50,596 nt of DNA, from positions 1 through 50,596 of the IMG/VR virus record IMGVR_UViG_3300043499_000126; one strand, written 5' to 3'. Source of the stretch: a virus. Under the pieces are notes generated by a model. That model searched no databases. It had not been told where the DNA came from and saw only the letters and a list, made by a program, of their open reading frames with translations. The position numbers and the translations under genes were made by a program. Shown in pieces: positions 236 through 25,591 of this stretch (its first letter is position 1; every line of letters begins with the position of its first letter).

Positions 236-627
236 CACAGCTCCTTTACGAGCAACTCACCGGGCTTGTCTGCCTGGAAGAAACGAAAATGTTTCTGCAT
301 TATAAGTGCGAAGTCTGGGTCAGTAACAAAGGCATATATCTCTTGTATACCTGCTTGCTCCGTGCCGCGAAACCCCTCAAGGATCAACATCCTAAAGGCG
401 TTAACGCGCGCACGGAGCGGAGCAGACTTGTCGAGAAAGAGCATGGCCTCTGCGAACAACTTGACTTGACCATACCCTATAATCTTGCCGTCATTTTCAA
501 CAACGGCATCGACAATGGACGATCTTCTGTTGGGCAGACCGTAGAGATCTGAGTGATGGTCTTCCCAGATCTTACTGATTGCTGGAACGTCGTCCCAACG
601 AAAAGATCGTAACTCGAGTTTAGACAT
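235..627 (-). CDS. GNAT-like N-acetyltransferase, 130 aa
   Basis: The 130-residue product has the look of a compact GNAT fold. It starts with an LRSFRWDDVPAI strand-helix opening, followed by a central strand pair (VVENDGKIIGYGQV) and an AFVTDPDF segment near the end. Small GNAT-like proteins often sit next to tail genes in podoviruses, where their substrate is unknown. The start overlaps the upstream spike stop (ATGTCTAA), and the stop overlaps the next start (TGATG), so it is translated as part of the late operon. The acetyl-CoA binding loop is not clear by eye, so activity is uncertain. Confidence 0.6.
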   Translation of the reverse strand: MSKLELRSFRWDDVPAISKIWEDHHSDLYGLPNRRSSIVDAVVENDGKIIGYGQVKLFAEAMLFLDKSAPLRARVNAFRMLILEGFRGTEQAGIQEIYAFVTDPDFALIMQKHFRFFQADKPGELLVKEL

Positions 628-2032
628 CGGATCTTAATCTAGCCTTCAGACGCTTTAGCTCTTCAGTCAGCTCACGCTGAACTGCCTGTACAATGTCCTT
701 TCGATCCACTTCTCGCTCTCGTTCAGCACTCATCGCGTCGATGTATATGTTGTCCGGATAGCGAGACTTGAACTGTGAATGTGCGCCACGGATCGTATTG
801 CCAGTGATCACCAGGTCTTTGATGATCCCTGCTGTGTTGTCACCGTGGTTGGCACCGCCGATGCGGATGCCATATGATCCGTAGTTCCACGTGCAATCGA
901 GGATATGCAAGATGTCACAGGAGTCTTTGTCTCCATACTCTAGAAACGACGACCCTTCGTGAGTAATCTCCATCCCTCGAAATACCACTGACTCTGGACC
1001 TTCAGTGATAAGACAGAAACGACCAGGACCACCCATTGCTGTCTTGTTCGTACGATAGTTACCACCACGCATCTCTGCCGTTGTGCGCGGCAGGGACGAT
1101 GCATTGTCTGCGGTGAAGTCGTGGCCGGTGATATTGACGATGGCCCCAACCTCGGACATGGTGCAGTTTTCGACCACCAGATTCCGGAGTGATCCACCGT
1201 TCTTTGGTGTGAACATGAACCCATAACCATCCTGACCACTAGCCCAGGAATTGGTCAAGGTGCATCGACGGATAGTCACGTTATGACCATCCTTCAGCTC
1301 AAGCAAGTTCTTGGTCGGGATGGAGCTGTTACCCTTCCATACAATGGGCTTGGTGAATACAGCGTCCTCGATCGTGATTCCTGTTGGACGGCAGTTCGGG
1401 ATTTTCATCTTGTCCCCGCCGACCATGATGTTCTCGCTAGCAGCCTCGAAATAGCCACCTGAAATGAGAACAGGACCAGGAGCATTCAGGATAGCAATTG
1501 CCTGACTATCCTGTTTGGCACTGGAGTAAACGTCACGAATGTCACAATCCTTGACTGTAACATTGGCTGCGTTGATCTCGATGCCTCGCTTCCCACGATG
1601 AGTCGCGACGCGCACTCCTTCGATCTTCACATCGTCAGGTGCCTGGTCAACAGTTGTTTGATTCGTATCATTTTTACCAACACGAATGACACTGTCGTAG
1701 TTCGATGCACCTTCCAATGCTTCAATCCCGATGTGGTCGATGCCAACAGATACACGTAGCGCGGGATTGCCACTACCAGTGATCTTGTTTCCACCCTGAC
1801 CCCGTAGTTTAGTGTCAGGAGTGTCGAAGCTGTAACTGCCCTCGCAGACAAGATTGGGAGCAAGTGCGACATTACCACCTGCTGTCAATGTTGCCTGCAC
1901 ATCACCACAGTTGTTGATGACGGTCTCATCTTCAGGACCAGGGTCAGGTGGTTCAGAGCCAAGCTCGTCACGAATCTTCTGCGTGAGAACGTCGATCTCA
2001 TCGCAGTAACCAAGAATCGTATCGGGATTCAT
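620..2032 (-). CDS. Tail spike with right-handed beta-helix (pectate-lyase-like), 470 aa
   Basis: I chose the ATG at 2032 because it overlaps the upstream stop as ATGA; the longer open frame to 2305 lies inside the preceding gene. After a ~35-residue N-terminal helix, the body is a series of short strands with turn asparagines and glycines (for example ITGSGNPALRVSVGIDHIGI, VKDCDIRDV, ITIEDAVF, VTIRRCTLTN, LVVENCTMSEV, LVITGNTIRG). This is the pattern of parallel beta-helix tail spikes and pectate lyases. It ends with an Arg/Glu-rich coiled-coil-like helix. Such proteins bind or degrade host surface glycans. Which residues are catalytic cannot be told by eye. Confidence 0.8.
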   Translation of the reverse strand: MNPDTILGYCDEIDVLTQKIRDELGSEPPDPGPEDETVINNCGDVQATLTAGGNVALAPNLVCEGSYSFDTPDTKLRGQGGNKITGSGNPALRVSVGIDHIGIEALEGASNYDSVIRVGKNDTNQTTVDQAPDDVKIEGVRVATHRGKRGIEINAANVTVKDCDIRDVYSSAKQDSQAIAILNAPGPVLISGGYFEAASENIMVGGDKMKIPNCRPTGITIEDAVFTKPIVWKGNSSIPTKNLLELKDGHNVTIRRCTLTNSWASGQDGYGFMFTPKNGGSLRNLVVENCTMSEVGAIVNITGHDFTADNASSLPRTTAEMRGGNYRTNKTAMGGPGRFCLITEGPESVVFRGMEITHEGSSFLEYGDKDSCDILHILDCTWNYGSYGIRIGGANHGDNTAGIIKDLVITGNTIRGAHSQFKSRYPDNIYIDAMSAEREREVDRKDIVQAVQRELTEELKRLKARLRSDV

Positions 2033-2697
2033 TTCTGCCCCTCGGGACGATTGAGTAGCTTCTTGAGCAGCACCAGCGTGGCTGCTTCTGAGGGACCGCC
2101 TCCACCAGTCTGAGGAGGTGCTGTGGCGGTGCCCGGCTTGACCTCGACGTCGATGTCGCCCTTGCAGCGCAGCGAGGTCAAACTGTCCATGACGATCGGC
2201 AGATTGACTGGGCCATGTGCGTGGAGTGGCTGTGCCATCGCGGTTTTGAGCGACTCGATCTCCGTATGGAGAGGCTTTGTCGCCTCGTCGATCATCGCCT
2301 GGCATTCTTCCTTGGTCAGACCCTGAGCAGGAGGCTGAGTTCCACCACCAGATTCTCCGGGTGTGACGATGGGAGGTCCACCGAGATCACGCCATTCCCA
2401 CTCAAGCCGATGTGGGCTTCCTGCTGCCGCATCCTTCAGTGGTGAGAAGGGATGGGTGTAATAGCCCTTGTCGTCAGGAGTCGCCGTCGGGAGAAAGATC
2501 CTTCCTGCGATGCGACCGTCACTGCCGATCTGCTGCGTCATCGCATTGAATGGCATGTCCGCTGTTGGCTTGACATACTCCGCATACCCCGCTGGAATGC
2601 CACTCTCACCAAGGACAGTCTCGTAATCGTCGGCAGGCTGTCCCGGTGACTTCTTAATGGTGTCGAAAAACAACCGTGCGTATTCGTCGCTAGACAT
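2029..2697 (-). CDS. Hypothetical late protein, possible spike accessory, 222 aa
   Basis: The start ATG overlaps the upstream methyltransferase stop (ATGTCTAG) and the stop overlaps the spike start (ATGA). Residues 1-110 contain a mixed strand region (YETVLGESGIPAGYAEYV, GRIFLPTATPDDKGYYTHPF). A Pro/Gly-rich linker and a short helix follow (GLTKEECQAMIDEATKPL), then a second Gly/Pro linker and a final basic helix. I recognise no family. Lying directly before the spike and coupled to it, it could be a spike chaperone or adaptor; this is inference from position only. Confidence 0.6.
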   Translation of the reverse strand: MSSDEYARLFFDTIKKSPGQPADDYETVLGESGIPAGYAEYVKPTADMPFNAMTQQIGSDGRIAGRIFLPTATPDDKGYYTHPFSPLKDAAAGSPHRLEWEWRDLGGPPIVTPGESGGGTQPPAQGLTKEECQAMIDEATKPLHTEIESLKTAMAQPLHAHGPVNLPIVMDSLTSLRCKGDIDVEVKPGTATAPPQTGGGGPSEAATLVLLKKLLNRPEGQK

Positions 2698-4033
2698 GAG
2701 CTTTACCCTTCAAAAGAATCGCTCTGAGATTTGCGACGGGATCACTTCTTGCCGTTATGACCTCGAAGTATGGATCGACAAACTTGGGAACGTCTTCGAA
2801 CCACCCGTCGTAGCTGTAGAGAACTAACATATCTGTATAGTTATGAATTACCTCCATAAGTGCCATCGCCTTGGACTCTGGCACTTCATACAGTCGTTGG
2901 ATTGCAATAAGCGTAAGATCGACTTCTTCCCACGCTCGGTGATCAAAAATGTCCAGTTCTAAATACTTGATGCCCTGTGCGCCACTGTCAATGACAGAAG
3001 GTTCGCAATCAATCCCGTAAAGAAACGTGCTAGGGTGCGCCCTTTGAACTGCTTTGAGAAGCTGCCCTGTGCCACAACCCAGGTCTAGAACCTTGCCCTT
3101 TATCTCAGGCAGGATAGAAACAATGAAGTCGTGTGCATTCTGCATGGACTCAAGTGAGTTAAATCCATTCCAATGTTTATTAAATTTAAGTGGTATAACA
3201 TTGGAGAATGGAAACTGATTGCCACTTGCGCCATATCTAGGATAGTCGTTACTATGTAGATTGAGTATAACTTTGTGTGCAAGTGCATCACTTGCGTAAG
3301 TTGTCTTTAGAACCGGAGTGACCACCATCGCAATGCCATGTAATGACGTCCACTGCATTGGCATGGACAATAAATCTCTCAACCAATTCATCTCCCTATT
3401 TAACTTATTCTTGTCCATTAATTCTAGAATCTCTTGCCCTCGTTTGACACTGGGTCTGCAGTCTACAGAACAAGGAAGGTGGAAAACTCCCCTGATCCCA
3501 ACGTGGCGGAGTAGCACGTTGTTGTAGACTGCATTCTTTTGATCCTTAGACTCAAAGGTTAGGGCTGTGTAGTCTCTCCACCCCGACTCCTTCCAATGCT
3601 TTTGAAAAGCCCTAACACAACAGTCAGGAAAGTCAAGCATGTGACCAATAGTGATATCGTCTTGAGCGCGCCACGCATCTAGAAACCTCTCTGGTTCTAA
3701 ACCAAAGTAAACTCGATAGGTGAATTGCTTACCAGATTCATATGGGATACTAGCATTCCCATAAGCTCCCTGGGCCGCACCATCAACACCTACGATAGCC
3801 ATTTGGACGTTATGTTTAAGTGCCCAGACCTGTAAGTCTGGTAGGTCTAAAGGATTAACACTTTGTAATATTCCAGGTCGCAACCCATCAATTAGTGTAA
3901 GTAACTCAACACCTTTCCATAGATTTGAGAGGGCATGTATCTTTCCTTGCCAGTACTCTCGTGCAGCTTCTGATGTCCAGACAACACGAAGGAAATCTGG
4001 AACTATAAAATCTAGTCTTTCGACTTTGCCCAC
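2690..4033 (-). CDS. SAM-dependent methyltransferase fused to a Cys-Cys domain, 447 aa
   Basis: The C-terminal ~140 residues are a class I methyltransferase: motif I VLDLGCGTG at 315-323, then the acidic residue of the SAM ribose site in YGID near 342 and LELDIFD near 358-364. The N-terminal ~260 residues carry DFPDCCVRAF (CC at 138-139) and later PCSVDC (C188, C192). The FP-x-CC-x3-F motif recalls DUF483-type proteins, and the four Cys could bind metal or an Fe-S cluster. The start is GTG, 22 bases inside the radical SAM gene, so the two are coupled. Probable role: modifying the same target as the radical SAM enzyme, most likely the HxD-repeat protein (inference). Confidence 0.8.
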   Translation of the reverse strand: MGKVERLDFIVPDFLRVVWTSEAAREYWQGKIHALSNLWKGVELLTLIDGLRPGILQSVNPLDLPDLQVWALKHNVQMAIVGVDGAAQGAYGNASIPYESGKQFTYRVYFGLEPERFLDAWRAQDDITIGHMLDFPDCCVRAFQKHWKESGWRDYTALTFESKDQKNAVYNNVLLRHVGIRGVFHLPCSVDCRPSVKRGQEILELMDKNKLNREMNWLRDLLSMPMQWTSLHGIAMVVTPVLKTTYASDALAHKVILNLHSNDYPRYGASGNQFPFSNVIPLKFNKHWNGFNSLESMQNAHDFIVSILPEIKGKVLDLGCGTGQLLKAVQRAHPSTFLYGIDCEPSVIDSGAQGIKYLELDIFDHRAWEEVDLTLIAIQRLYEVPESKAMALMEVIHNYTDMLVLYSYDGWFEDVPKFVDPYFEVITARSDPVANLRAILLKGKAHV

Positions 4034-5187
4034 TGTGGACGCTCCGTTAGAACTGTAGCTGGAATACCATAATCGGTATGATCACCATGATGATCTCCAT
4101 GAGGAATATCACCATGCCCGCTGTTCACTGGGTGAACGGCTGAAAGGAGATTAGCAATCTTTGTCCGCTTAGCACATTCACTTAAGAGCTGAGGTTGATC
4201 CCTCTCTATTGTTTCAAAGAGCGAGTACCAGAGTCTGCAGTTGACTGTTCTGTTTCTCCAATCTCCATCAATAGCAGTTCCGGGGCAATGACCCTTACAG
4301 AAAGCGAAGTATCGGCAATCCTTGCAGCCCCCGACCTCTTGAGGAGTGTGATAAAGAGCAATGTATCTCTCAAGTCCTGATACGTCAGCCTTGACCCAGT
4401 TGACCCCGTCCTTATTAGTTCGACCACAATTAGACATCTGTCCACTGGGTGAAACTCCTTGCACTGCAGCAGTCGTCTGTGGATCGCAATGATTCCATAC
4501 ACACGTTACACTTGGCTCGTACTGTGTGAGAAGTTTCTTGATATCAGCAAACGGGAGAACGCTCAGTTTAGAAGTCTTTGACCATTCATAGAGTTCTAAG
4601 TAGGTTTCGATTTGTCGTTCTTCCGAGAGCGCAAGCCCATCTCGGCCGCAATCGATCTCCATCTCATGGAGATTAAGATGCCTAATCCCAAGAGAGCTAA
4701 GAGTATCAAACCACTTGCAAAGGCGAGGAAGGTCATTGTTACCCCGATGGATCGTACAGATGATCGAAGGGATGATCCCTAAGTTACAGAGCTTCTTGAT
4801 TGCAATCTCTGTTTGGAGTGTCAGCTCGTCTGAGCAGCGCACACTATTCATATCACCTGGACCATCTATCGAGATACCTACGCCTACTTTGTATTTAGCG
4901 AACAACTCAATATGTTCGTCGGTGATAAGTGACCCGTTGGTTTGGATTCCATTACTTCCAAATCTTTCAAGTCCCCAAGCCCACACCTCCTCGAGATGTT
5001 TGATAGGAGCAAGGAGCGGTTCTCCTCCAAAGACAGCAAAGTTTTGACCAAGTCTATCAAGTTGTTTCTGTGCTTTAGACCAATCTCTTGGGACATTGAT
5101 ATTACCTGCTTCCCTCATTGGGTCTTGATAGCAGTATCCACACTTGATGTTACACGCAATTCCGACAGGTAGATATTCTACGCTCAT
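4012..5187 (-). CDS. Radical SAM/SPASM peptide-modifying enzyme, 391 aa
   Basis: The radical SAM cluster motif CNIKCGYC is at residues 12-19 (CX3CX2C), followed by FGGEP (53-57), QTNGSLI and SIDGPG. The C-terminal half is a SPASM domain: C229, C234 and C254, then CX2CX5CX3C at C288, C291, C297 and C301, and a final C317. These are ligands for auxiliary Fe-S clusters. SPASM enzymes typically modify peptides or proteins. Residues 357-372 carry HGD-type repeats like those in the upstream protein, to which it is coupled by an ATGA overlap. It is therefore probably the maturase of that protein. A radical SAM/SPASM gene inside a phage tail operon is unusual. Confidence 0.92.
   Translation of the reverse strand: MSVEYLPVGIACNIKCGYCYQDPMREAGNINVPRDWSKAQKQLDRLGQNFAVFGGEPLLAPIKHLEEVWAWGLERFGSNGIQTNGSLITDEHIELFAKYKVGVGISIDGPGDMNSVRCSDELTLQTEIAIKKLCNLGIIPSIICTIHRGNNDLPRLCKWFDTLSSLGIRHLNLHEMEIDCGRDGLALSEERQIETYLELYEWSKTSKLSVLPFADIKKLLTQYEPSVTCVWNHCDPQTTAAVQGVSPSGQMSNCGRTNKDGVNWVKADVSGLERYIALYHTPQEVGGCKDCRYFAFCKGHCPGTAIDGDWRNRTVNCRLWYSLFETIERDQPQLLSECAKRTKIANLLSAVHPVNSGHGDIPHGDHHGDHTDYGIPATVLTERPQWAKSKD
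4120..4140. promoter_or_regulatory. 21-bp palindrome, copy 1
   Basis: Arms GCTGTTCA and TGAACGGC around CTGGG, inside the radical SAM gene, where it encodes the H-P-V-N-S linker just before the HGD tail. Confidence 0.7.
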
Positions 5188-6005
5188 GGTCCGATCAATA
5201 CTGGATTATCAACATGAGGAAGATCCCCATGTACTGCATCATTATGGTCTACGTGTGGTTGATCACCATGAGGGACATCCCCATGCCCACCTTCTGGAAC
5301 GTCTGTATGTGGTGTATCTGAGTAATGGTCCTGATGTACTGTATCGTGATGCGGTGTATCATTATGGAAATCTTGATGATTAGCATCATCATGGGTATCA
5401 CAATGGAATTGATTACCGTCATAATGGTTATCGGTATGATCGCCATGACCTGTAGGTATAGAATTTGAGTAATAATAGCAATCATCATGAACCTTATTAA
5501 GAGCTGAACCACTATCCCCATGCGAATCACCATGACCTAGATCATCATGTGCGTCGATAAAGCTATCACCATGTGGTGAATCTGAATAGAGATCATTATG
5601 AATCACATCATTATGTGGTCCAGGAGGTGCATCTACGTGAACAGATTGATCTGTATGATCAACATGAGCCGCAACTCCACCTGTATCTGTATGAACTACA
5701 TCTTCATGTGCACGATATGACCACGAACCACCCGCTTGAACCCAGTGTAAAGTTGTAAATTCAGCCCAGAGTGATCCTTGCAAAGCCTGAGCATCACCAT
5801 GCATCAGAGGGCCAACGACTTTGTATTCCCTATCTGCCGTCTGATTGATGTAATGAAGATCAGGCCCCTCAACCCAGAGGGAACCTGCGATAGCTCCTAC
5901 AATGCCACCGACGAGAATACCATTCCAAGCCCGCTCATTTCCGTCTGAGCCGACGTAGCGGAGAGTATCTCCCTCAATCCAGAGTGAGCCTGCGAGCTTT
6001 GGCAT
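5184..6005 (-). CDS. His-x-Asp repeat protein with three GSLW repeats, 273 aa
   Basis: Residues 1-99 hold three imperfect repeats of about 36 residues, each starting GSLW-x-E followed by a Leu-x-(Tyr/Trp)-(Val/Ile) strand (near 6, 41 and 77); this is probably a small beta domain. Residues 100-266 are a ladder of nearly thirty His-x-Asp triplets, most often HGD, HVD, HTD and HND, spaced 3 or 5 residues apart (for example HGDVPHGDQPHVDHNDAVHG). Only two Cys occur. The start overlaps the upstream fibre stop as TAATG. Position says virion appendage. The ladder could bind metals in an oligomer, or be the substrate of the coupled radical SAM enzyme, or both. It resembles in concept the His-Xaa-Ser proteins matured by HxsB/HxsC, but the repeat differs. 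Confidence 0.85.
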   Translation of the reverse strand: MPKLAGSLWIEGDTLRYVGSDGNERAWNGILVGGIVGAIAGSLWVEGPDLHYINQTADREYKVVGPLMHGDAQALQGSLWAEFTTLHWVQAGGSWSYRAHEDVVHTDTGGVAAHVDHTDQSVHVDAPPGPHNDVIHNDLYSDSPHGDSFIDAHDDLGHGDSHGDSGSALNKVHDDCYYYSNSIPTGHGDHTDNHYDGNQFHCDTHDDANHQDFHNDTPHHDTVHQDHYSDTPHTDVPEGGHGDVPHGDQPHVDHNDAVHGDLPHVDNPVLIGP

Positions 6006-6607
6006 TACGGAACTGCCCAGTAATCAACACCAACTGGAATGATGAGACGATTCATGATGTGCAGGGTCATATCACCACGCATGACCATACCACCAATTGT
6101 CGCTGCTCGATTAGAAACATTGATACAAAAATCACCCTTACCCGTTCCAGCTTGGACAAAAAGACCGAAACTCTGATTCGCTGCGGGATTACCTGCGATA
6201 TGAACTCCATAAATTCCAGGCGTAGGATTAGCTGCAATATTGGTCATGTATGCAGTTCCGGTCTGGTTGAATGTCCCGTTTGAAGTTACGTTAAGAAGTG
6301 TCCCTCCTGTAATAGCAACAGCATTGGCATTCTGGACTGCCATTGTGCCAAGACCAAAGTTGATACGCGCGCCTGCTGCATTGGCAGATCCTGACCCACC
6401 GCCATCTACAGATAGGACTTGATCGACAAAGGCCGCACCGTCCCATTCCTGGAATTTCACAGGGGCGCGCACCAGCTTTATTGATCCAGTCGGAGGACCA
6501 GTAAGTGGGATCTTTTGCAGAGTAATTGCGTCAATATCCCGATTCTTTGCCTCGTCGACAAAGAGGACGTAATTACTGGTTATTGTCGGTTTTGACCAAT
6601 CCGCCAT
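6005..6607 (-). CDS. Tail fibre protein, 200 aa
   Basis: The stretch FGLGTMAVQNANAVAITGGT (about residues 83-103) is a motif widely seen in phage tail fibres and appendages, followed by a Gly/Thr/Asn-rich beta region. The N-terminus (SNYVLFVDEAKNRDIDAITL) resembles short attachment domains. The start ATG has a GAGGA Shine-Dalgarno 6 bases upstream and lies within the end of the 61-residue coiled-coil gene. Its stop overlaps the HxD-repeat gene start. The final residues form a strand-rich tip. Receptor binding is likely but the ligand is unknown. Confidence 0.7.
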   Translation of the reverse strand: MADWSKPTITSNYVLFVDEAKNRDIDAITLQKIPLTGPPTGSIKLVRAPVKFQEWDGAAFVDQVLSVDGGGSGSANAAGARINFGLGTMAVQNANAVAITGGTLLNVTSNGTFNQTGTAYMTNIAANPTPGIYGVHIAGNPAANQSFGLFVQAGTGKGDFCINVSNRAATIGGMVMRGDMTLHIMNRLIIPVGVDYWAVP

Positions 6608-7110: not shown

Positions 7111-8088
7111 TCACGCAATCGGAAAGGCTGATACTCCACCTACAGTGATAGTTCCAGCCGGAAAACTACCACCACCATCAATTCTTCGATATAGATTTAG
7201 CTTAAGTTGGAAAGGTGCGGTCTGAATCATTCCATATGCATCACCAGCTAGCATCGCACTAGCACTGTATCCAGTTGGAGTAAACCCTGCTGGCATGTCG
7301 ATATAGATGATACTGGGTGTTGAGCTAAGAGTAATCGTTATGTAAAAATTTACACAAAAGGTTTTCCCGATTAGAGCGTATCTACAAGAAAGAGTTTGAG
7401 CCAGAGTTGCAGTCCCTAAATTCGCAGATACCACCGGAGCGAAATCAATCCAGTCCCCTAATGCTGTTGTGCGACCTCGCTCAAGGATTGCTCCAGTATT
7501 AGTAAAGGATAAAAGACCAGCAAAGGCACCGCTATTAGCAGGCGCGCGAAAGAATGAGACTGAATCAGTAAAGCTCGATACTCGAAAAAGCCAAGCGGGA
7601 TAGGACGTGTTATGAGGAACCCAAACAGATCCATTCCACCATGCGTTATGAAGATGCTCGAATCCGAACTGAGTATTCTGGATATATGCCTGAGCGCCTC
7701 CATTCAGAGTTACTCCAGCACTTGCTCCCATCACTGTTAACCAACTACCAGTAAGAGTTACATTCCCGTTACGATTCAGTCTAACAGCAGATTGCTCAAC
7801 AGTCTCTGCATCATTTATTGAGCGTAGTGCTAAGAGACCACCGTTATTTATTATATCAAATCTTCTTTGGTCTACGGGTCTACTTGGATCAATTATGAGA
7901 AGCCTTGCAGAGCTAGAAGAACTTATGATTTGAGTCTGATTAAAAGTATTTGGGGCATTCGTATATGCAACATTGGGAATCGTTCCCTCAGTGATGACTG
8001 CTCCGCTAAGAGGTAGCGGCAGCCATGACACTCCGTTGTCAACAGACTTTTCAAAAATGTGGGAAGTCTGGTTGTATCGCTGCCACAT
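7111..8088 (-). CDS. Tail fibre protein, 325 aa
   Basis: The ATG at 8088 was chosen since it overlaps the upstream stop as TAATG; the longer frame to 8112 would need a TTG inside the previous gene. The N-terminus (HIFEKSVDNGVSWLPLPLSG) followed by IPNVAYTNAPNTFNQTQ is typical of phage fibre attachment and collagen-like linker segments. The rest is a Ser/Thr/Gly/Asn-rich beta-structured shaft and tip. The C-terminal part (LIGKTFCVNFYITITLSSTP through MPAGFTPTG) resembles a receptor-binding tip sandwich. Likely host recognition. Confidence 0.7.
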   Translation of the reverse strand: MWQRYNQTSHIFEKSVDNGVSWLPLPLSGAVITEGTIPNVAYTNAPNTFNQTQIISSSSSARLLIIDPSRPVDQRRFDIINNGGLLALRSINDAETVEQSAVRLNRNGNVTLTGSWLTVMGASAGVTLNGGAQAYIQNTQFGFEHLHNAWWNGSVWVPHNTSYPAWLFRVSSFTDSVSFFRAPANSGAFAGLLSFTNTGAILERGRTTALGDWIDFAPVVSANLGTATLAQTLSCRYALIGKTFCVNFYITITLSSTPSIIYIDMPAGFTPTGYSASAMLAGDAYGMIQTAPFQLKLNLYRRIDGGGSFPAGTITVGGVSAFPIA

Positions 8089-9554
8089 TAGACGACACCC
8101 CGAGCCTTCCAAGAAACCAGATATGTAACACGATTGCCAGTGGAATCCAGAGCAAAGACCTTAAAACCGACAGGATTGGGTATATCCACGAAATCGTAAA
8201 TGATAGTAATCGGCTCGATAGAATCGCATGTTGCAGTGATTGAATTAACATCCTTGAACAACTTATTGAATTTTACAGGCGTTCCATTAGTATGGTCTAC
8301 AGGGAGACCATCAACATTATGAATACCACCTGCATAGGCAATAACTTCACCACCATCTACCTCTCGTTTGACGTCAAGAGTAGTGGTCAATACGGTACAC
8401 TCTGCTAGAGCTTTATCACTTGAGCCTGTGAACTCAAGCCTCATCTTCAAGTAACGGAAGATAGGAACGAATTGCGATGGACCAACTGGAAGTGCAGTAT
8501 AAACAACACCATCACTAGAGTAAGATAGCTTTACTAGAACAGTGACCTCTGGAACTATCTGAATCAGTTGATAAGTAACTGTAACGATTGTATTCTGAAT
8601 CTCTATTCCATAGTCGATAACTTCTTCATACCAACCCGTTGTGAGCGTAGGCTGGATGTAGATTGGATAGCCAGCATTGATCTGGTCCTGTGGTGTATTC
8701 CACGATCTATTTACAAAATGCTGCTGCCAAGTTATATTAGTATCAACACACGCAATGAGGCTTGGCGTATTGGAGCGCACAACATTAAATTTCGTGCCAT
8801 TCAATCCGCTAATCTTCGTATCTAGAAGTTGGTAATCTGGTGGGGTATTGACGGTTGTAGTAACCTCCCCTATCTCACTCACATTACCAGCTATGTCGAT
8901 TGCTTCTACTCCATAGGTGTAATCCCCTGCGACTGTTTCAAAGGTTGATACAAACGTAGCGCGAAGCGCACCGTAAAGATTGTCGTTCCGATATATACGA
9001 TAGCGGTCAATCGTGAAGCTAGTTGTAGGAACAGTCCAATTTAGAAGAACGTTGTTATCAATTACTGCAGCTGTCACAACTGGCTTACCGGGAGAGATAA
9101 TTGTAATAGTTAGGCTCGCAAAGTTTGGTGAGTAGTTACCGAACGTATCAATAGTCTTAATCAGAAAGAAGTATGATCCAGATGGAAGAGGATCAAGTAG
9201 TATAGAAAGGGATGGGGTGCGCGTCACGAATGACGCAGAATCCCAAATCAACTCACCTGATCTACGAATCTCGTATAGACGAGCCGAGGCATTCGGAGCT
9301 TCCCATGACAAGTGAATGCCATTGAGCTGAACCTGACCTACAAAGTTCAGAGGCTCAGGAGATAGCCCTGTTCCACCTCCACCAATGATAGGTCTTATTG
9401 CTTGCTCAAGTGGCGCAATGGTCTGATAGATTAGCTGTACGTCCTTGTTGACATCACGAAGGATCTCCTTAAGGATCAGGACAGATCTTTCGTCATTTCC
9501 AAGGGCATCTATCCTTGCATCACGCTGTGGCTTAATGGGATGTTGTATCGCCAT
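8088..9554 (-). CDS. Fibronectin type III tail protein, 488 aa
   Basis: Start at the ATG overlapping the upstream stop (TAATG at 9554); the longer frame to 9596 lies inside that gene. After an N-terminal helix there are two tandem Fn3-like modules, roughly residues 75-160 (IHLSWEAPNASARLYEIRRS) and 160-245 (VLLNWTVPTTSFTIDRYRIY, ending in DIAGNVSE). Both have the Trp and Tyr core positions and the closing D-x-x-GN-x-S motif. The C-terminal ~240 residues are strand-rich and end in YDFVDIPNPVGFKV. Such proteins connect the tail hub to fibres and bind host surfaces. Confidence 0.7.
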   Translation of the reverse strand: MAIQHPIKPQRDARIDALGNDERSVLILKEILRDVNKDVQLIYQTIAPLEQAIRPIIGGGGTGLSPEPLNFVGQVQLNGIHLSWEAPNASARLYEIRRSGELIWDSASFVTRTPSLSILLDPLPSGSYFFLIKTIDTFGNYSPNFASLTITIISPGKPVVTAAVIDNNVLLNWTVPTTSFTIDRYRIYRNDNLYGALRATFVSTFETVAGDYTYGVEAIDIAGNVSEIGEVTTTVNTPPDYQLLDTKISGLNGTKFNVVRSNTPSLIACVDTNITWQQHFVNRSWNTPQDQINAGYPIYIQPTLTTGWYEEVIDYGIEIQNTIVTVTYQLIQIVPEVTVLVKLSYSSDGVVYTALPVGPSQFVPIFRYLKMRLEFTGSSDKALAECTVLTTTLDVKREVDGGEVIAYAGGIHNVDGLPVDHTNGTPVKFNKLFKDVNSITATCDSIEPITIIYDFVDIPNPVGFKVFALDSTGNRVTYLVSWKARGVV

Positions 9555-11416
9555 TACTGAGGCCTTGTTAGCCAGAGTTGACGAACAAATACCCACATCT
9601 TAGTAATAGTCAGATACTCTCCATTGTTCTGTAATACACCTCGGATTGTAATCTTCTCGCTTTGCGCATTGAAAGTCCTCATTGGATATATACCTGGAGC
9701 TATAGTTAGAGGAATGCCAGGCAGGTTATAAACCTGTCCGCCATCCAGACTTGTCACTGTTAGCCTGAGATTTCCTGAACCATAGGCGCGCAGTCTTATA
9801 CCACCGTGGTGAAAGACCTCACCCTTGGAATCGACAGGTAATTCACCAGTTTCCCAACGTGTGACTATTGCAACGTCATAGTCATTATGCTGTGTGATGT
9901 CAAGCTTCCTGATATTACCACCCTGTGTTGCATACCTGAAGATAATGTCCTTTGATACGAGATCATTATCAAGACCCATTGATAATGGGTAATGTGGAAA
10001 TGTCCAGAGAGACCACCTGATGTTCTTGGAGTTCAAGCCCTGTGTATAATCACCAACCAGAATTGCATTGGTGAATGTCGAACCATCTAGTGGTAGAGAA
10101 ATGTAGACGATTTGGTTATCCGAGTCGATTGCAACCTGGATCTTCTGGAAGTAAATCTTGGTAACTCGCTGCCAGATGTCCTTGACTTTCCAGGTTATCT
10201 CCTCCTCGAAGTTACCTGTAAACATCATTAGACCTCGACGCGAGGCTACTAGGTATTTGTCTACTGTATTTGAGTTGCGCTCGAATATCTTTCCTACACC
10301 ATGACACTCAGTTCCAACTGAGCCATCTAGCAGAGGAACTTGCCAGAACAGAGGCTGGTCGTTAGTTCCTTGTGTTACGTAGCATCTGTTGGATTTGAGT
10401 ATATACAGCGAGGATCGGAACTCGACGCAGTTTCTGACGCCCCCTCCGACCGTTGGCTCAACTTGAGCGAATCCTTCAACAGCGTTAAAAGACTCGGGTT
10501 CTCCAGCCTTGGAGATACGAACTGTGGCTGGGTTAGCATCCTCTCCCCAGACAACCATGCTTCCCTGATACGCGGTAATCCCAACCCCGGCAGGGATAGT
10601 GGGTAGCTGCTCAAGGATATAGTCGGCCTGGTCGACGAGATCAGCGTCGAAGTAGGAGATAGATTTAGTCGTTGTAACGTTGTCTGCGATTCTCCCTTGT
10701 GGAACGAAGAACCATTCTGCATTCTGATAGTCCCCGTTGAAATCGTTTGTTGCAGGGTCTGCGATGTTCTTGGTAGTAAAAAGAATGCGAGCGATAGTGC
10801 CAGCCGGACCAATAGGAATATTAGAAACTTCGATTGTCTTGTCGCCTGTATTAGTGATGTTTGCGAAAGCACCGAACTGAGTGATGAAACTTGTAGCTGT
10901 CTCGAAACCTACAGCGATGGCATGGATTCCCATATCGACCTTGCCACCCGCACCTTCTACTAGAGTCACACCGGGTGTAGGAGTAATAGCGACACCTCCT
11001 GCTACCTTGGCCGCACCTGTGCCTGTATAGTAGTAGACGTTCTGACCTGGCATACCTGTTATCCCATTGTGTGGAGTAATGTATGCCCTGTCAAAAAAGG
11101 TCTCCATTGAAAAGTCTGTCATTCCGGGAATCTGTAGGATTGGGCCTTTAGCAAGGTCCGACGAGTCCCACAGATTCCCGTCACCAACTAGGATTAGAAG
11201 TCTTGATACCTGTCCTGTGATTTTGTAGACATGAAACCTGACTACCTCACCACAGGTTATATCTGTGACGGACCCCTCCCGAGTATAGAACCCAGACGGT
11301 TTGTACCGTAGATTCAGAGCGGTCTTAAAGTGATCGATAGGGATGGCTTCATCCGGGCCTCGATCAAAGAGACCGTTAAAATCTGGTATCGGGACGGGAA
11401 CGTGGTTCTCGATCAT
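9554..11416 (-). CDS. Tail nozzle/hub-like protein, 620 aa
   Basis: A large all-beta protein in the position of the tail tube end (T7 gp12-like nozzle or P22 gp10-like hub). It begins with PDFNGLFDRGPDEAIP and ALNLRYKPSGFYTREG. Repeated strand pairs follow, including VVWGEDANPATVRISKAGEP (a blade-like segment), SSLYILKSNRCYVTQG and VASRRGLMMFTG. The C-terminus is a further strand-rich domain. It starts and ends as TAATG overlaps, fixing it in the tail block. Assignment to a specific family by eye is not possible. Confidence 0.6.
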   Translation of the reverse strand: MIENHVPVPIPDFNGLFDRGPDEAIPIDHFKTALNLRYKPSGFYTREGSVTDITCGEVVRFHVYKITGQVSRLLILVGDGNLWDSSDLAKGPILQIPGMTDFSMETFFDRAYITPHNGITGMPGQNVYYYTGTGAAKVAGGVAITPTPGVTLVEGAGGKVDMGIHAIAVGFETATSFITQFGAFANITNTGDKTIEVSNIPIGPAGTIARILFTTKNIADPATNDFNGDYQNAEWFFVPQGRIADNVTTTKSISYFDADLVDQADYILEQLPTIPAGVGITAYQGSMVVWGEDANPATVRISKAGEPESFNAVEGFAQVEPTVGGGVRNCVEFRSSLYILKSNRCYVTQGTNDQPLFWQVPLLDGSVGTECHGVGKIFERNSNTVDKYLVASRRGLMMFTGNFEEEITWKVKDIWQRVTKIYFQKIQVAIDSDNQIVYISLPLDGSTFTNAILVGDYTQGLNSKNIRWSLWTFPHYPLSMGLDNDLVSKDIIFRYATQGGNIRKLDITQHNDYDVAIVTRWETGELPVDSKGEVFHHGGIRLRAYGSGNLRLTVTSLDGGQVYNLPGIPLTIAPGIYPMRTFNAQSEKITIRGVLQNNGEYLTITKMWVFVRQLWLTRPQ

Positions 11417-12414: not shown

Positions 12415-13051
12415 GTCTCACTTCTCCCGTGAACTGGAGAGTCTTGTAGATCTCTGGATTGATAATACAACCGCACTCTCGGCACACTGCAACCTTCTTG
12501 CTAATCGCAGTGCCGCAACCAGGACAATCCGTGATGTTCTCTGGCTTGAACTCAAGCGCCCACTCACGATTGAACTTCAGACGTCTCGCAGCAATACGCT
12601 GAACTTCAGTGATCATCCTGTGCTGATGATGCTTGGACCACTCGTCATCAGCAATGAAGATCAATCGCTTGAACCATTCGAGCTGCAGAGAATGCTCTCT
12701 GAAGATTCGTTCTTTCTGATCCTTATCTCGTTGAATCTCTTCGAGCGTCCATTCCCCTGGGACTGTCCAGAGTGCGGGCCGCGCCTCTTCGCTATAGAGG
12801 TATTGTCCATCGAGGAAGTCCCTGACCACAGAATCTGCCACCGTAATGGCAGGAGTTCTGATGGTCATTGAGCCTCGAAACTCATCAAGATAGACATGGA
12901 AGATACCTTCTCCAACCTTAAGAATCTTGGGCTGAAGCTCCTCTGTAGAAGCTTCAACCTGATAGATACTCGGGATGAGAGGCTTCTTCTCGAACACCGG
13001 AAGTGGAAAGAGACTTACGATTGTTGCCGTCGTCGCGAAATCTTTAGGCAT
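12401..13051 (-). CDS. Late protein with C-terminal zinc ribbon, 216 aa
   Basis: The first ~110 residues are strand-rich (KILKVGEGIFHVYLDEFRGS), and a helical middle follows. Near the C-terminus a zinc ribbon is clear: CPGCG at about residues 175-179 and CRECGC at about 190-195. Between capsid and adaptor genes it could be a head completion protein or a DNA-associated accessory. It overlaps both neighbours (8 and 14 bases). Family not recognised. Confidence 0.6.
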   Translation of the reverse strand: MPKDFATTATIVSLFPLPVFEKKPLIPSIYQVEASTEELQPKILKVGEGIFHVYLDEFRGSMTIRTPAITVADSVVRDFLDGQYLYSEEARPALWTVPGEWTLEEIQRDKDQKERIFREHSLQLEWFKRLIFIADDEWSKHHQHRMITEVQRIAARRLKFNREWALEFKPENITDCPGCGTAISKKVAVCRECGCIINPEIYKTLQFTGEVRHASQ

Positions 13052-13562
13052 CCTTTTTATCCTTTGGCATCTCTGGCACGACGATAGCTTCCTTGTTCTG
13101 AAGCATCGTCGCTATATAGGGTGATTCGTTGTCTAGAATTTCGTAGGCCTCTTCAACTTCCTTATCGAACTTTTGCTTGTCTTCGTCGTAATGGTCCTTG
13201 AGAGTTCTCTTAACTCCATGCTCAAGAGAATTCGCAATGAACATACAGACTTCAATATTGGGATTTTGTTCTGGCTCGAAAGCCCAGATGACCTCCCAAC
13301 CGTTCCAGTCCTTGACCTCTCGAGGCGCGTGACCGTCGAATCGAAAATACTTCTCAAGAACAAAGCAGCCCTTTAGGTAGGAATACTTTGGCAGCCGCGC
13401 TGTCTCTTCGCGCTCACCTGTATAGTTGCCAGAGCCGTCGACCAGTGTAAGAACACGATGACGAGTTTCAAATTCATCATCAGCCCAAGCGAGACGATAT
13501 CTGTTATTCCACTTGAGTTCGAGAGCTCTGTTGATTAGTGCTACTGCTTGCTTATCAATCAT
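13044..13562 (-). CDS. Hypothetical late protein, 172 aa
   Basis: The product has alternating strand and charged-helix segments (RVLTLVDGSGNYTGEREETA, WNGWEVIWAFEPEQNPNIEV) and an acidic C-terminal helix. It follows the capsid gene after a 10-bp-stem hairpin in the intergenic gap. No Shine-Dalgarno is visible just before its ATG, which abuts that hairpin. A head-completion role is suggested only by position. Confidence 0.5.
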   Translation of the reverse strand: MIDKQAVALINRALELKWNNRYRLAWADDEFETRHRVLTLVDGSGNYTGEREETARLPKYSYLKGCFVLEKYFRFDGHAPREVKDWNGWEVIWAFEPEQNPNIEVCMFIANSLEHGVKRTLKDHYDEDKQKFDKEVEEAYEILDNESPYIATMLQNKEAIVVPEMPKDKKDA

Positions 13563-13569
13563 AAACTAA

Positions 13570-13599
13570 CGGGGAGAGACGAACTACCATCTCTCCCCG
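13570..13599 (-). terminator. Hairpin after capsid gene (attenuator-like)
   Basis: A perfect 10-bp inverted repeat (CGGGGAGAGA at 13570-13579 pairing with 13590-13599) with a 10-base loop lies just after the capsid stop in the direction of transcription. The following sequence is TTAGTTTAT, only a weak T-run. It is probably a partial terminator or an mRNA-stabilising 3' end that lets capsid transcripts exceed downstream ones. Confidence 0.55.
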
Positions 13600-13607
13600 A
13601 CCTCCAC

Positions 13608-14894
13608 TCAGTATCCGGCAGGAACGGCGAGGTTATCGACGTACGCGCACACCGCAGGATTCGTTACGTAGAGGTTGAACGAACCAACCACGTAGAAAAT
13701 CTGCGATGTCGCCACACCACCTGAAGTTCCACGAATCTCGAAGATCTTGCGACCATCGACCTCGTAGAAACCAGCAGGATGCATCTCCGCACGACCCCAG
13801 ACGGAACGCACGATGAAATCGATTCGTCGCTTGTCCCAGCTGTAGTGCTTGCGGATGCCGACTCCAGCAATCTGGAAGTTGTCGCCCTCACCGAAGTAGA
13901 GATCGACAGCCTGCTTGCCAGGAGTCTTGTTGATCATCATCACTGACTGGGCCATCTCTTCATAGGCCTGGACCTGACAGGGATGCATCCACGCTTCCGA
14001 CTTCGTGCCATGATCTTGACCGAGCCTGTCACCGATCTTATTCATGGCGAGTCGCGCATAGGGCAGGGCCAAGGCTGTCCCGTTTGCGTTGACCCGATTC
14101 GCACGAATCTCCGGGAACAAGGCTCGATCAAGTCCGAGCCACGATCCGGTTGATGCGTTCGAGATATGGTAAGGAACACCATATAGCGAGACCGGAGGCG
14201 TGGAAGCGAGACCCGAAACGACCAACTTGTCGCCAGGAACTGCCGGAGCAGCGACAGTGCCGTTGAACCTGACCTGCTTGTTCTGCAAGTCGAGCAGATC
14301 GATCGGAGCTTCACCGTTGACGCTACCACCGAGGGTGAAAGCTCTCCTCGTGGTGAGCGTGCTGTTGTACACTGACAGCAACTGCCCGTGACGCATCAGG
14401 CGCACACCGAAGCCATCAACGTCACAAGTGTATGTGTCCTTGTTGGCAGTGGTTGAGACCGCCGAGATAGTTCCCAACACGCCTGTGCCGTCTGAGGATA
14501 CGGCAAGGGCGTCAACTGCCCGACGGAACTCAACCATGCCAGAGGCAAGAAGCTTCTTGACCGACTGGACGACAGCCTTGCGCGCGTCATCAGTCGCCCA
14601 TTCAGTCTTCTTGTGCCATTCGATTGCGTGGCGCAAGTGAACCGTATTGATGACCGCCTTCTCGTAGGTCGGTCCTTCACCGCGTCCGAGGTCGCCGCCT
14701 GCGGGATCGAAATGGCCGAACCGTCCGCCGGGCCGAATCTCCAACGGGATACGCATATCCCGATTCGAGATCTGCTCGACTTCTCCCTTTTCGATCATGG
14801 AATAGAAAGTGTCTTCCTTGTCGAAGAGAACAGGGATCTTGGTTTTGACCTTCTCAAGCTCCGTGGCAGCTACCTGTGTTTCGTCCATTGCCAT
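13608..14894 (-). CDS. Major capsid protein, 428 aa
   Basis: Size, position between scaffold and connector genes and sequence features fit an HK97-fold capsid protein of the podovirus type: an N-terminal arm (QVAATELEKVKTKIPVLFDK), a long spine-helix segment (DDARKAVVQSVKKLLASGM), Gly-rich beta segments, and a C-terminal FEIRGTSGG and VTNPAVCAYVDN region. Codon choice is visibly more GC-ending than in its neighbours, as expected for the most abundant product. The start MAMDET has GGAG about 11 bases upstream. Confidence 0.85.
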   Translation of the reverse strand: MAMDETQVAATELEKVKTKIPVLFDKEDTFYSMIEKGEVEQISNRDMRIPLEIRPGGRFGHFDPAGGDLGRGEGPTYEKAVINTVHLRHAIEWHKKTEWATDDARKAVVQSVKKLLASGMVEFRRAVDALAVSSDGTGVLGTISAVSTTANKDTYTCDVDGFGVRLMRHGQLLSVYNSTLTTRRAFTLGGSVNGEAPIDLLDLQNKQVRFNGTVAAPAVPGDKLVVSGLASTPPVSLYGVPYHISNASTGSWLGLDRALFPEIRANRVNANGTALALPYARLAMNKIGDRLGQDHGTKSEAWMHPCQVQAYEEMAQSVMMINKTPGKQAVDLYFGEGDNFQIAGVGIRKHYSWDKRRIDFIVRSVWGRAEMHPAGFYEVDGRKIFEIRGTSGGVATSQIFYVVGSFNLYVTNPAVCAYVDNLAVPAGY

Positions 14895-23914: not shown

Positions 23915-25591
23915 TCAGTGCGCCACGTAGTAAGGAAATCTTGAACGTCTTGGTCTTTTGTGAAATAACTTGACTGGACGATCGTTATGTTTCTTGTCGC
24001 GCTCGAGCTTTTCCATCTTTCTGTAGAATCCGGTCATGTCTCCTGTGTTCTGTAGGAACTCAAGGACCGCATTCAGTCTTTCTCGATCTTCACTTACTGT
24101 AACGCTCTGCTCAACCCAACGATGTATCTCTTTTACGAGATAGCGACACCCATCGTACGGGTCATCGCCATCGAACTCCATGACGTCTTCCATTCGGGTG
24201 TCGTCATAGATGCAGAGCGGAATAACGTCTTCGAGCGCTCCGAGATCCTTATCCACGTACATGCGTGAATTCTTGAAAATCTGGAGCTTCGGGAGGTTCG
24301 TTTCCGGCTTCTCCGGCTCGAACATCGAGGCATACTCTTTATATGCCTTTTCTCCGTAGATTCTGAAGATACGCGCACCGATCTCAATCGAGTAGCCCTC
24401 TTTTGGTATGATACGTTCTGGCTTTGGCTTCCATCTCAAGTATTCATGCATTAGCATTTTACCACTGATGCGATCATTATCTGCTAATTGTATCTTGAAT
24501 CTCTGTTCTAGATTAGGAGGATTAAGGACATCGCTGAACTGCTGCAATATCGACTTCAAATCCCCTTCCCGTCTCTTCGCCGACGGGTCGATAACTACTG
24601 AATCTATGATTTCTTCCTGAGATATGCGAACAAAGTCGCTAGCCCAATCGACAATCTTCCTGTTTTTCTGACCGTACTGACGGTAAATGAAGGCTTGTCC
24701 GTTAGGCGCGACGGCCGCCCAACCTATCCACGTCATTGCTGCATGACCCCAGTCAATTCCTACGATCCTGGGCCAATAAGCTGGAATTGGAAATGGATCT
24801 ATGAGATGGAGCGCGTTCTTTGGCTCACCTGCGAAGTGCTCAAAGCGATATTCGTCGAATACTTGACCAGTGAATGTCCACCAGTCACCTTCGAGCTTGG
24901 CCTTACGTTCCGCAAGTGGTAGAAGTTGGAGTCTATTGATGTAGTTAGGGTCCGCCTGCATCAAGAACTGATTGTCTGTCAGCTTGGCGGGGATGAAGAT
25001 TCTGTAGCTTTTGGCTGCTCTGTCAAAGATCTTGGTGTATCCTGCTCTAGCAGGTTCGACAAAGCGACGACGAACCCAAGCATGGCCGACGTTACCAGGG
25101 TTAGTAGCACCCCTAACGATTGCAGGTAAAGAAGAATCTGAAGTACGACATCTGGACGTGAGGAAGACGTACTGGAATTCTTCAAACGCCGTGAGTTCAT
25201 CGAAACCTATGTAGTTGTATTCGGCGGTGTCGTGGGACCTAGCATCTTCAGCGCGCAGCATATAGCTGAACTGAATCCAGGCTCCCGACGGAAATGTCCA
25301 GCGATGTTTTGTGTCATTGTAGGTTGCTCCGAAAAGTGGGTAGATGTCTCTCGATCTGGGGATAAGCGACTCTTCCAACTCTGGGAAGGTGCGCCTGAAT
25401 ATGATTCCTTTGAAGAAAGCATTCTGATACCACCCTCGAACAATGGGTAACATCAGAAGGATTTCTGACTTACCTCCACCGGCCGCGCCCCCGTACATCG
25501 CCTCAAAGATCGAGTCGGGGATTTTGATGAAGTCCGTTTGCCTTTTGTTAGGCTCCCAGACTTTGTTGCCATCTACTAACTGAAATGGCAT
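23915..25591 (-). CDS. terL: Terminase large subunit, 558 aa
   Basis: This is the DNA-packaging motor. A Walker A motif GGAAGGGKS lies at residues 34-42, followed by a Walker B-type YIGFDEL near 125. The C-terminal RNase H-like nuclease shows VGIDWG near 280, an acidic SVVIDPSA near 345, and GDDPYDGCRYLV near 485. Length is normal for the family. Start ATG overlaps the upstream stop (TAATG). The very C-terminus is Arg/Lys-rich. It acts with portal and small terminase to cut and pump DNA. Confidence 0.93.
   Translation of the reverse strand: MPFQLVDGNKVWEPNKRQTDFIKIPDSIFEAMYGGAAGGGKSEILLMLPIVRGWYQNAFFKGIIFRRTFPELEESLIPRSRDIYPLFGATYNDTKHRWTFPSGAWIQFSYMLRAEDARSHDTAEYNYIGFDELTAFEEFQYVFLTSRCRTSDSSLPAIVRGATNPGNVGHAWVRRRFVEPARAGYTKIFDRAAKSYRIFIPAKLTDNQFLMQADPNYINRLQLLPLAERKAKLEGDWWTFTGQVFDEYRFEHFAGEPKNALHLIDPFPIPAYWPRIVGIDWGHAAMTWIGWAAVAPNGQAFIYRQYGQKNRKIVDWASDFVRISQEEIIDSVVIDPSAKRREGDLKSILQQFSDVLNPPNLEQRFKIQLADNDRISGKMLMHEYLRWKPKPERIIPKEGYSIEIGARIFRIYGEKAYKEYASMFEPEKPETNLPKLQIFKNSRMYVDKDLGALEDVIPLCIYDDTRMEDVMEFDGDDPYDGCRYLVKEIHRWVEQSVTVSEDRERLNAVLEFLQNTGDMTGFYRKMEKLERDKKHNDRPVKLFHKRPRRSRFPYYVAH

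Follow-up and report, generated by a model that had tools for sequence, protein, structure and literature searches.

We describe a three-gene cassette found on the minus strand of a 50.6-kb viral contig (IMG/VR record IMGVR_UViG_3300043499_000126; the whole stretch, positions 1–50,596, is called the window in this text). The cassette encodes a protein with dense His-x-Asp (HxD) repeats, a radical S-adenosylmethionine (SAM) enzyme with a SPASM domain, and a protein in which a DUF483 domain is fused to a methyltransferase domain. In the explanation that fits the data best, and that we put forward with moderate confidence, the enzyme and its DUF483 partner act on a tail fibre or adhesin and install many cross-links between residues i and i+2 along its C-terminal domain. 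Related gene sets occur in dozens of phages that are unrelated to one another, and in a few bacteria. We regard the cassette as a real and widespread variant of SPASM radical SAM maturation that has been moved onto phage fibre proteins and is, provisionally, undescribed in the open-access literature.

An earlier note, made from the sequence of the window, had pointed out these three adjacent genes, and we have confirmed them as one overlapping minus-strand run. The run comprises the genes for a tail-fibre-like protein (6607–6005), the HxD protein (6005–5184), the radical SAM enzyme (5187–4012) and the DUF483-methyltransferase (4033–2690), followed by a gene at 2697–2029, and the successive overlaps are 1, 4, 22 and 8 nt. 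The HxD protein (273 aa; 5184..6005, minus strand) is the last gene product of the tail-fibre run and the predicted substrate of the enzyme; its homologue adjoins the enzyme in nearly all relatives. The nearly thirty HxD triplets after three GSLW repeats that had been noticed are indeed present, as 29 triplets and as GSLW at residues 6, 41 and 77. The HxD core (residues 100–266; 5208..5708, minus strand), with 27–28 triplets, is the predicted site of the repeated i/i+2 cross-links, on the basis of the residue constraint and the substrate rule given below. Composition-preserving shuffles of the 169-aa C-terminal core gave 5.6 ± 2.0 HxD with a maximum of 14 (10,000 shuffles), versus 27 in the actual sequence. 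The N-terminal domain with the triple GSLW-type repeat (5721..6005, minus strand) is presumably the attachment part, and GSxW motifs recur in relatives: at least two lie within the first 130 aa in 30 of 54 dereplicated precursors. In phages the N-terminus of HxD precursors is exchangeable, consisting of GSxW repeats, of LamG-bearing tail proteins (Laminin_G_3 was found in the precursors of loci L030 and L032) or of other tail proteins, and HxD domains of relatives are joined both to a protein matching a PHROG tail fibre family and to LamG-bearing proteins. Such exchange is expected of a module that serves different surface appendages as their functional end. The GSLW domain of the window had no relative in the annotated phage collection, in which the Thermus version matched only phages phiMa and Cumys, and the HxD protein had no match among NCBIfam models.

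The second gene encodes a putative radical SAM/SPASM maturase of 391 aa (4012..5187, minus strand), whose AlphaFold model, made with sequences from the window and the contig scans alone, has a predicted local distance difference test score (pLDDT) of 87.9. The radical SAM domain was assigned with PF04055 (E 7e-13; 49.6 bits versus a cut-off of 29.5). The CX3CX2C motif and the full SPASM cysteine set that had been read from the translation are both present and invariant in 53 relatives. The former is the motif of the [4Fe-4S]-SAM cluster (C12, C16 and C19; 5131..5154, minus strand), and the latter, for which two auxiliary clusters are expected, is a seven-Cys set spanning C234–C317 (4237..4488, minus strand) with the arrangement C234-x14-G249-x4-C254, C288-x2-C291-x5-C297-x3-C301 and C317; G249 is invariant as well. 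The earlier note made no mention of a C-terminal tail of the enzyme, residues 358–372 (4072..4116, minus strand), which bears four HxD triplets of the HGD/HTD type and is thus a built-in copy of the substrate motif. This tail was found in 46 of 64 enzyme clusters, nearly all of them from phages, and is missing from nearly all cellular members. It is predicted to be disordered (pLDDT below 50 at residues 354–377), and the model gave no sign that the tail, at this low pLDDT, docks in the active site of the enzyme itself.

The linkage between enzyme and repeat protein was examined in both directions. A contig scan with the single sequence gave no relatives; a query with an alignment did. A tblastn search found the enzyme, at 47–49% identity, in the cultured Thermus phages phiLo, phiMa and Cumys, and profile-guided scans extended the same enzyme family to 59 viral loci and to about 18 genomes of bacteria. 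In phiMa and Cumys, which grow on a laboratory strain of Thermus thermophilus, the gene just before the enzyme has 53–54 HxD triplets. In phiLo, three HxD-rich open reading frames (ORFs) lie about 4 kb away on the strand opposite to the enzyme (L001:14807-18601); two complete, adjacent ones have 72 and 101 triplets and the third is cut by the end of the stretch. When an ORF was counted as dense if it had four or more Hx[DN] in 60 aa, 54 of the 64 non-redundant enzyme clusters had such an HxD/HxN-dense ORF, mostly directly upstream on the same strand. The refuting condition of the earlier note, enzyme homologues that lack an HxD protein, thus nearly always failed. Five of the ten remaining clusters (L035, L039, L050, L063 and L085) are on short contigs or border the end of a contig, and three are bacterial loci with short C-terminal motifs (L082, ...PFVDIIPHIDYVDLGGY; L083, ...AAAIIHIDL; L086, ...AAVVHIDF). 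A DUF483 gene is beside the enzyme in 79 of 83 family loci, the four misses being at contig ends or on short contigs. The 63 more distant SPASM loci returned by the same search served as controls: none had DUF483, and four had a marginal HxD cluster (4–5 per 60 aa). One phage (L049) has repeats that are almost wholly HxN, yet it has kept the enzyme, DUF483 and the GSxW N-terminus.

The reverse check was a blind DNA scan for the pattern HxDxxHxDxxHxDxxHxD, which gave 40 compositionally diverse HxD ORFs among the matches listed. The enzyme was on the same stretch for 32 of these 40 and in the same record for 35; three of the remaining five, again among the matches listed, were fragments homologous to an enzyme-bearing phage, and the other two were a 10-kb fragment and an unrelated repeat of low diversity. 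The enzyme accompanied none of six low-complexity repeats among the same matches. Wider genome searches around two cellular members added no new member: besides the starting genomes they yielded one that was already known. The near-universal linkage found in both directions supports the earlier view that phages use a SPASM enzyme to modify an appendage with HxD repeats.

The substrate rule was derived from 54 dereplicated repeat domains containing 1615 HxD, in which HxD was masked and the remaining i,i+2 pairs were compared with within-protein shuffles. With Asp at i+2, only Tyr (84 versus 15.8 expected), Phe (41 versus 6.1) and Trp (9 versus 2.4) were enriched at i besides His, and with His at i, only Asn was enriched at i+2 besides Asp (111 versus 17.1). 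FxN was also enriched (47 versus 11.7), mostly in one phage group. The pairs RxD, QxD, NxD, LxD, PxD, HxG, HxE, HxA, HxV and HxY were at, below or not significantly above expectation in these domains, and HxS was depleted (7 versus 15). We rejected mutational decay of HxD as the origin of YxD and HxN, since other single-nucleotide neighbours are not enriched and since FxD and WxD, which are at least two changes away from HxD (CAY/GAY codons), are enriched. An alignment of 14 homologues had 89% identity at His and 74% at Asp/Asn, versus 21% at x and 25% at other positions. Among about 1,500 intervals from His to His, all but 5 span at least three residues, as would be the case for rings that do not overlap. 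At the motif level, the enrichment of [HYFW]-x-[DN] only agrees with triceptide substrates, which have an aromatic residue at i and the modified residue at i+2.

The third gene product had been described as having a methyltransferase motif and a Cys-Cys domain, and both descriptions hold: the motif is VLDLGCGTG (residues 314–322), and the Cys-Cys domain is DUF483 according to Pfam (PF04467, E 9e-8; 32.5 bits versus a gathering score of 25). The DUF483 domain (3176..4033, minus strand) has four cysteines (138, 139, 188 and 192); among its relatives, C138, C139 and C192 are invariant and C188 is nearly so, which suggests a metal or Fe-S site. Judging from its gene neighbourhoods, DUF483 is an obligate partner of the enzyme. 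The fused class I SAM methyltransferase domain (2690..3166, minus strand; Methyltransf_25, E 6e-6) is an accessory, because it is fused in 39 of 61 DUF483 partners and is absent from the other 22, including those of the Thermus phages. Methylation as a core step is therefore weakened, and this optional nature of the methyltransferase beside the constancy of DUF483 had escaped the earlier note. Domains of the DUF364/DUF4213 type, putatively for the chelation of heavy metals, occur fused to DUF483 in one locus (L087:8381-10333) and immediately adjacent to it in another (L083:8956-9837). Homologous genes adjoin DUF483 in three Bacteroidota loci (L074:9002-10450, L075:6206-7654 and L077:8982-10439), and the copy in L074 matches TIGR04267, a model of an HExxH-type peptide beta-hydroxylase.

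We suppose that the system would work as follows. The substrate would be an appendage in which about 170 C-terminal residues consist of about 30 His-x-Asp cassettes, replaced elsewhere by [His/Tyr/Phe/Trp]-x-[Asp/Asn], spaced by short linkers of small or polar residues. In the infected cell, the SPASM enzyme would generate a 5'-deoxyadenosyl radical that takes a hydrogen from the beta-carbon of Asp or Asn at i+2. A bond would then form between this carbon and the ring at i (imidazole or aryl), and the electron would pass to the auxiliary clusters. Repeated action would produce a train of small macrocycles, each with a mass change of -2 Da. As the obligate partner, the four-Cys DUF483 protein would probably hold the substrate or provide redox or metal supply, and the methyltransferase, where present, may add an optional second mark. 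The predicted product is a stiff, highly acidic rod, resistant to proteases and heat, at the fibre tip, for reach or adsorption. The steps of this scheme differ in their strength. The enzyme very probably acts on the HxD protein, and the location of this protein on the virion is quite likely in view of its gene position and the fusions. Cross-linking of His or another aromatic residue to Asp or Asn is the probable reaction by analogy with known enzymes, and stiffness or adsorption could conceivably be the benefit of the modified rod, as gene position and fusions faintly hint. Chances appear evenly balanced as to whether a dedicated phage enzyme and DUF483 represent a widespread kind of protein maturation in viruses that has so far gone unrecognised, in which 10–100 cross-links turn the C-terminus of a tail fibre into a poly-cyclophane rod, and which has counterparts on bacterial cell surfaces.

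The closest precedents are the triceptides. Triceptide-type SPASM enzymes link an aromatic residue at i, His and Tyr included, to Cbeta of the residue at i+2, Asp and Asn included: YxdB joins Tyr C3 to Asp Cbeta, HaaB and YhhB join His C2 to Ala or Arg Cbeta, and OscB joins Trp to Asn or Asp Cbeta (PMC11002830). XncB, OscB/GrrM, YxdB, HaaB and YhhB are thus like the present enzyme in the SPASM architecture and in an aromatic-x-X motif with the second residue at i+2, and they provide precedents for Tyr-x-Asp, His-x-X and Trp-x-Asp/Asn (PMC11002830). However, the precursors of triceptides are peptides that carry one ring or a few, whereas here the substrate would be a large fibre-like protein with about 10–100 motifs and DUF483 is obligate. 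TvgAB, which makes poly-cyclopropylglycine from TVGG repeats (PMC9062424), is another radical SAM system modifying tandem-repeat units with -2 Da per unit; its motif and bond are different, and its substrate is a precursor of a ribosomally synthesised and post-translationally modified peptide (RiPP) and not a fibre-like protein. The HxsABCD system (Haft and Basu; mentioned in PMC9062424) likewise combines a repeat protein of the His-x-X kind with radical SAM enzymes that have a SPASM domain, but it has HxS and the set HxsB, HxsC and HxsD, whereas here HxD/HxN occur with a single enzyme and DUF483. The kinship with HxsB that had been suggested was not borne out, the HxsB model giving 24 bits versus a cut-off of 370, and the HxD protein gave no NCBIfam match to a His-Xaa-Ser precursor of the HxsA type. 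The closest solved folds to the enzyme model are ChlB (9gm3) and anSME (4k39); anSME modifies a full-size protein, as proposed here, but it forms formylglycine at a single site and has no HxD repeats. The linkage of the same three genes had already been noted, prophages included, as the 'rSAM module' of Cumys and phiMa, in a text that makes no mention of the repeats, describes the third protein as unknown and guesses at DNA modification (Kolesnik et al. 2024, PMC11437467).

Several points weigh against the cross-linking reading. The enzyme belongs to no named cyclophane-forming family: its nearest named models are AmcB, TIGR04083, DynA and anSME, its top NCBIfam matches include AmcB, DynA and YhhB, and every NCBIfam score is far below its cut-off (AmcB 69.9/425, YhhB 56.5/445, GrrM 40/310 and XyeB 35/450 bits, score/cut-off). 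Since anSME is in addition as near in fold as the cyclophane formers, homology does not settle the reaction type. A few phage groups contribute most of the HxN and FxN counts, no substrate could be recognised in the cellular loci L072 and L089, a Foldseek search with the DUF483-methyltransferase returned methyltransferases only and no fold match for DUF483, and no mass-spectrometry or proteomics study of these virions was found in the open-access literature. RiPP-like accessories in cellular loci can be counted in favour of the cross-linking reading; they are the TIGR04267 beta-hydroxylase and small peptides with HID at the end, which are accompanied by a second radical SAM gene.

That the enzyme alters a single residue of the HxD protein (Asp/Asn or His, by beta-oxidation, epimerisation or C-methylation), with the aromatic residue at i serving for recognition only, is unlikely but deserves the most attention among the alternatives. 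Linkage and motif data suit any [aromatic]-x-[DN] specificity, the cyclophane formers are no closer than anSME, an oxidiser of one residue, and some cellular loci carry the HExxH peptide beta-hydroxylase; however, a strong constraint on two positions exactly two apart, with any aromatic residue accepted at i, is what marks i/i+2 aryl-to-Cbeta cross-links in the enzymes characterised so far (PMC11002830). The HxD domain could also be mainly a metal-binding tip of His and Asp, with the enzyme tuning or assembling the metal site; a metal-binding tip had been one of the suggestions of the earlier note. His and Asp make up 37% of the domain, and DUF364/DUF4213 is fused to or near DUF483 in L087 and L083, but these are two loci only, Glu, Cys and other ligands are not enriched, and the acceptance of Phe, Trp and Tyr for His, which a metal-ligand model does not predict for Phe and Trp, leaves this idea unsupported and improbable. 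The [HYFW]-x-[DN] rule matches the substrates of SPASM enzymes that form three-residue cyclophanes, and the cross-linked His/Asp product, which had been listed among several possible products, is therefore favoured over the others.

It is still less probable that the HxD protein and the enzyme merely travel together and the enzyme has another substrate. The two cellular loci without HxD would fit such an explanation; repeat proteins with unrelated N-termini, however, are all paired with one enzyme family, the motif is present in the enzyme's own tail, and the HxN variants retain the pairing. The modification of phage DNA proposed by Kolesnik et al. (2024, PMC11437467) for the Cumys/phiMa locus is the least probable alternative. 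Homologues of the radical SAM enzyme and DUF483 are reported to occur near deazapurine DNA-modification genes in some cyanobacteria (PMC11437467), and the window itself has a ParB-DNA methylase fusion, though unrelated to the cassette. Yet the near-universal third partner is a repeat protein constrained on His and Asp/Asn only, the module sits among tail genes, and the genes for preQ0 synthesis and transglycosylation that deazapurine modification needs are nearly missing, QueC being found in 1 and TGT in 0 of 21 module-bearing records and neither in the window. What thus stands of the initial interpretation is a system modifying HxD proteins, probably by cross-linking; a metal-binding tip as the main point, methylation as a core step and the relation to HxsB are weakened or unsupported.

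In the open-access literature searched, no such finishing of proteins has been described for viruses. If the cross-linking reading is true, radical SAM maturation is not confined to small peptides but also acts on long structural fibres and in viruses, and its product here would be a structural biopolymer made by radical chemistry instead of a small RiPP. It would also give DUF483 its first functional setting, explain the orphan module of cultured Thermus phages, and offer a genetically encoded route to stiff, protease-resistant protein rods.

Bacterial members provide additional observations. Two HxD proteins, from Planctomycetota and Chloroflexota (L079:6078-7004 and L087:10382-10864), have Tat-like signals (RRELLLAG and RRTFLSG), and one of them probably has a membrane anchor at its C-terminus; these bacteria may thus use the module on the cell surface. 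The small peptides ending in H-I-D (L083:5672-5905 and L086:9733-9969) are accompanied by a second radical SAM gene, which is YydG-epimerase-like in L083, and they are possible new RiPP precursors of this enzyme family. In the phage with HxN repeats, two genes beside the module (L049:8157-8846 and 12561-13751) have an HxD...H pattern reminiscent of Fe/2-oxoglutarate dioxygenases and no match in Pfam or NCBIfam.

The HxD gene is placed among tail genes of the window because genes upstream of it have matches to tail fibres and to host-specificity proteins of the tail. The tail-fibre-like protein (6005..6607, minus strand; PHROG tail fiber, E 2e-5) is directly upstream with a 1-nt overlap, and a tail or host-specificity (J-like) protein (8088..9596, minus strand; phrog_1727, E 5e-16; phrog_31, E 5e-9) is farther upstream in the same run. 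Downstream in this run is a right-handed beta-helix protein (620..2036, minus strand; PF13229, E 7e-6), for which a start at about 2034 is more likely, because the long ORF to 2305 would overlap the preceding gene. The terminase is at 23915-25591, and the aforementioned fusion of a ParB-N domain to an N6/N4 DNA methylase is at 39152-40420.

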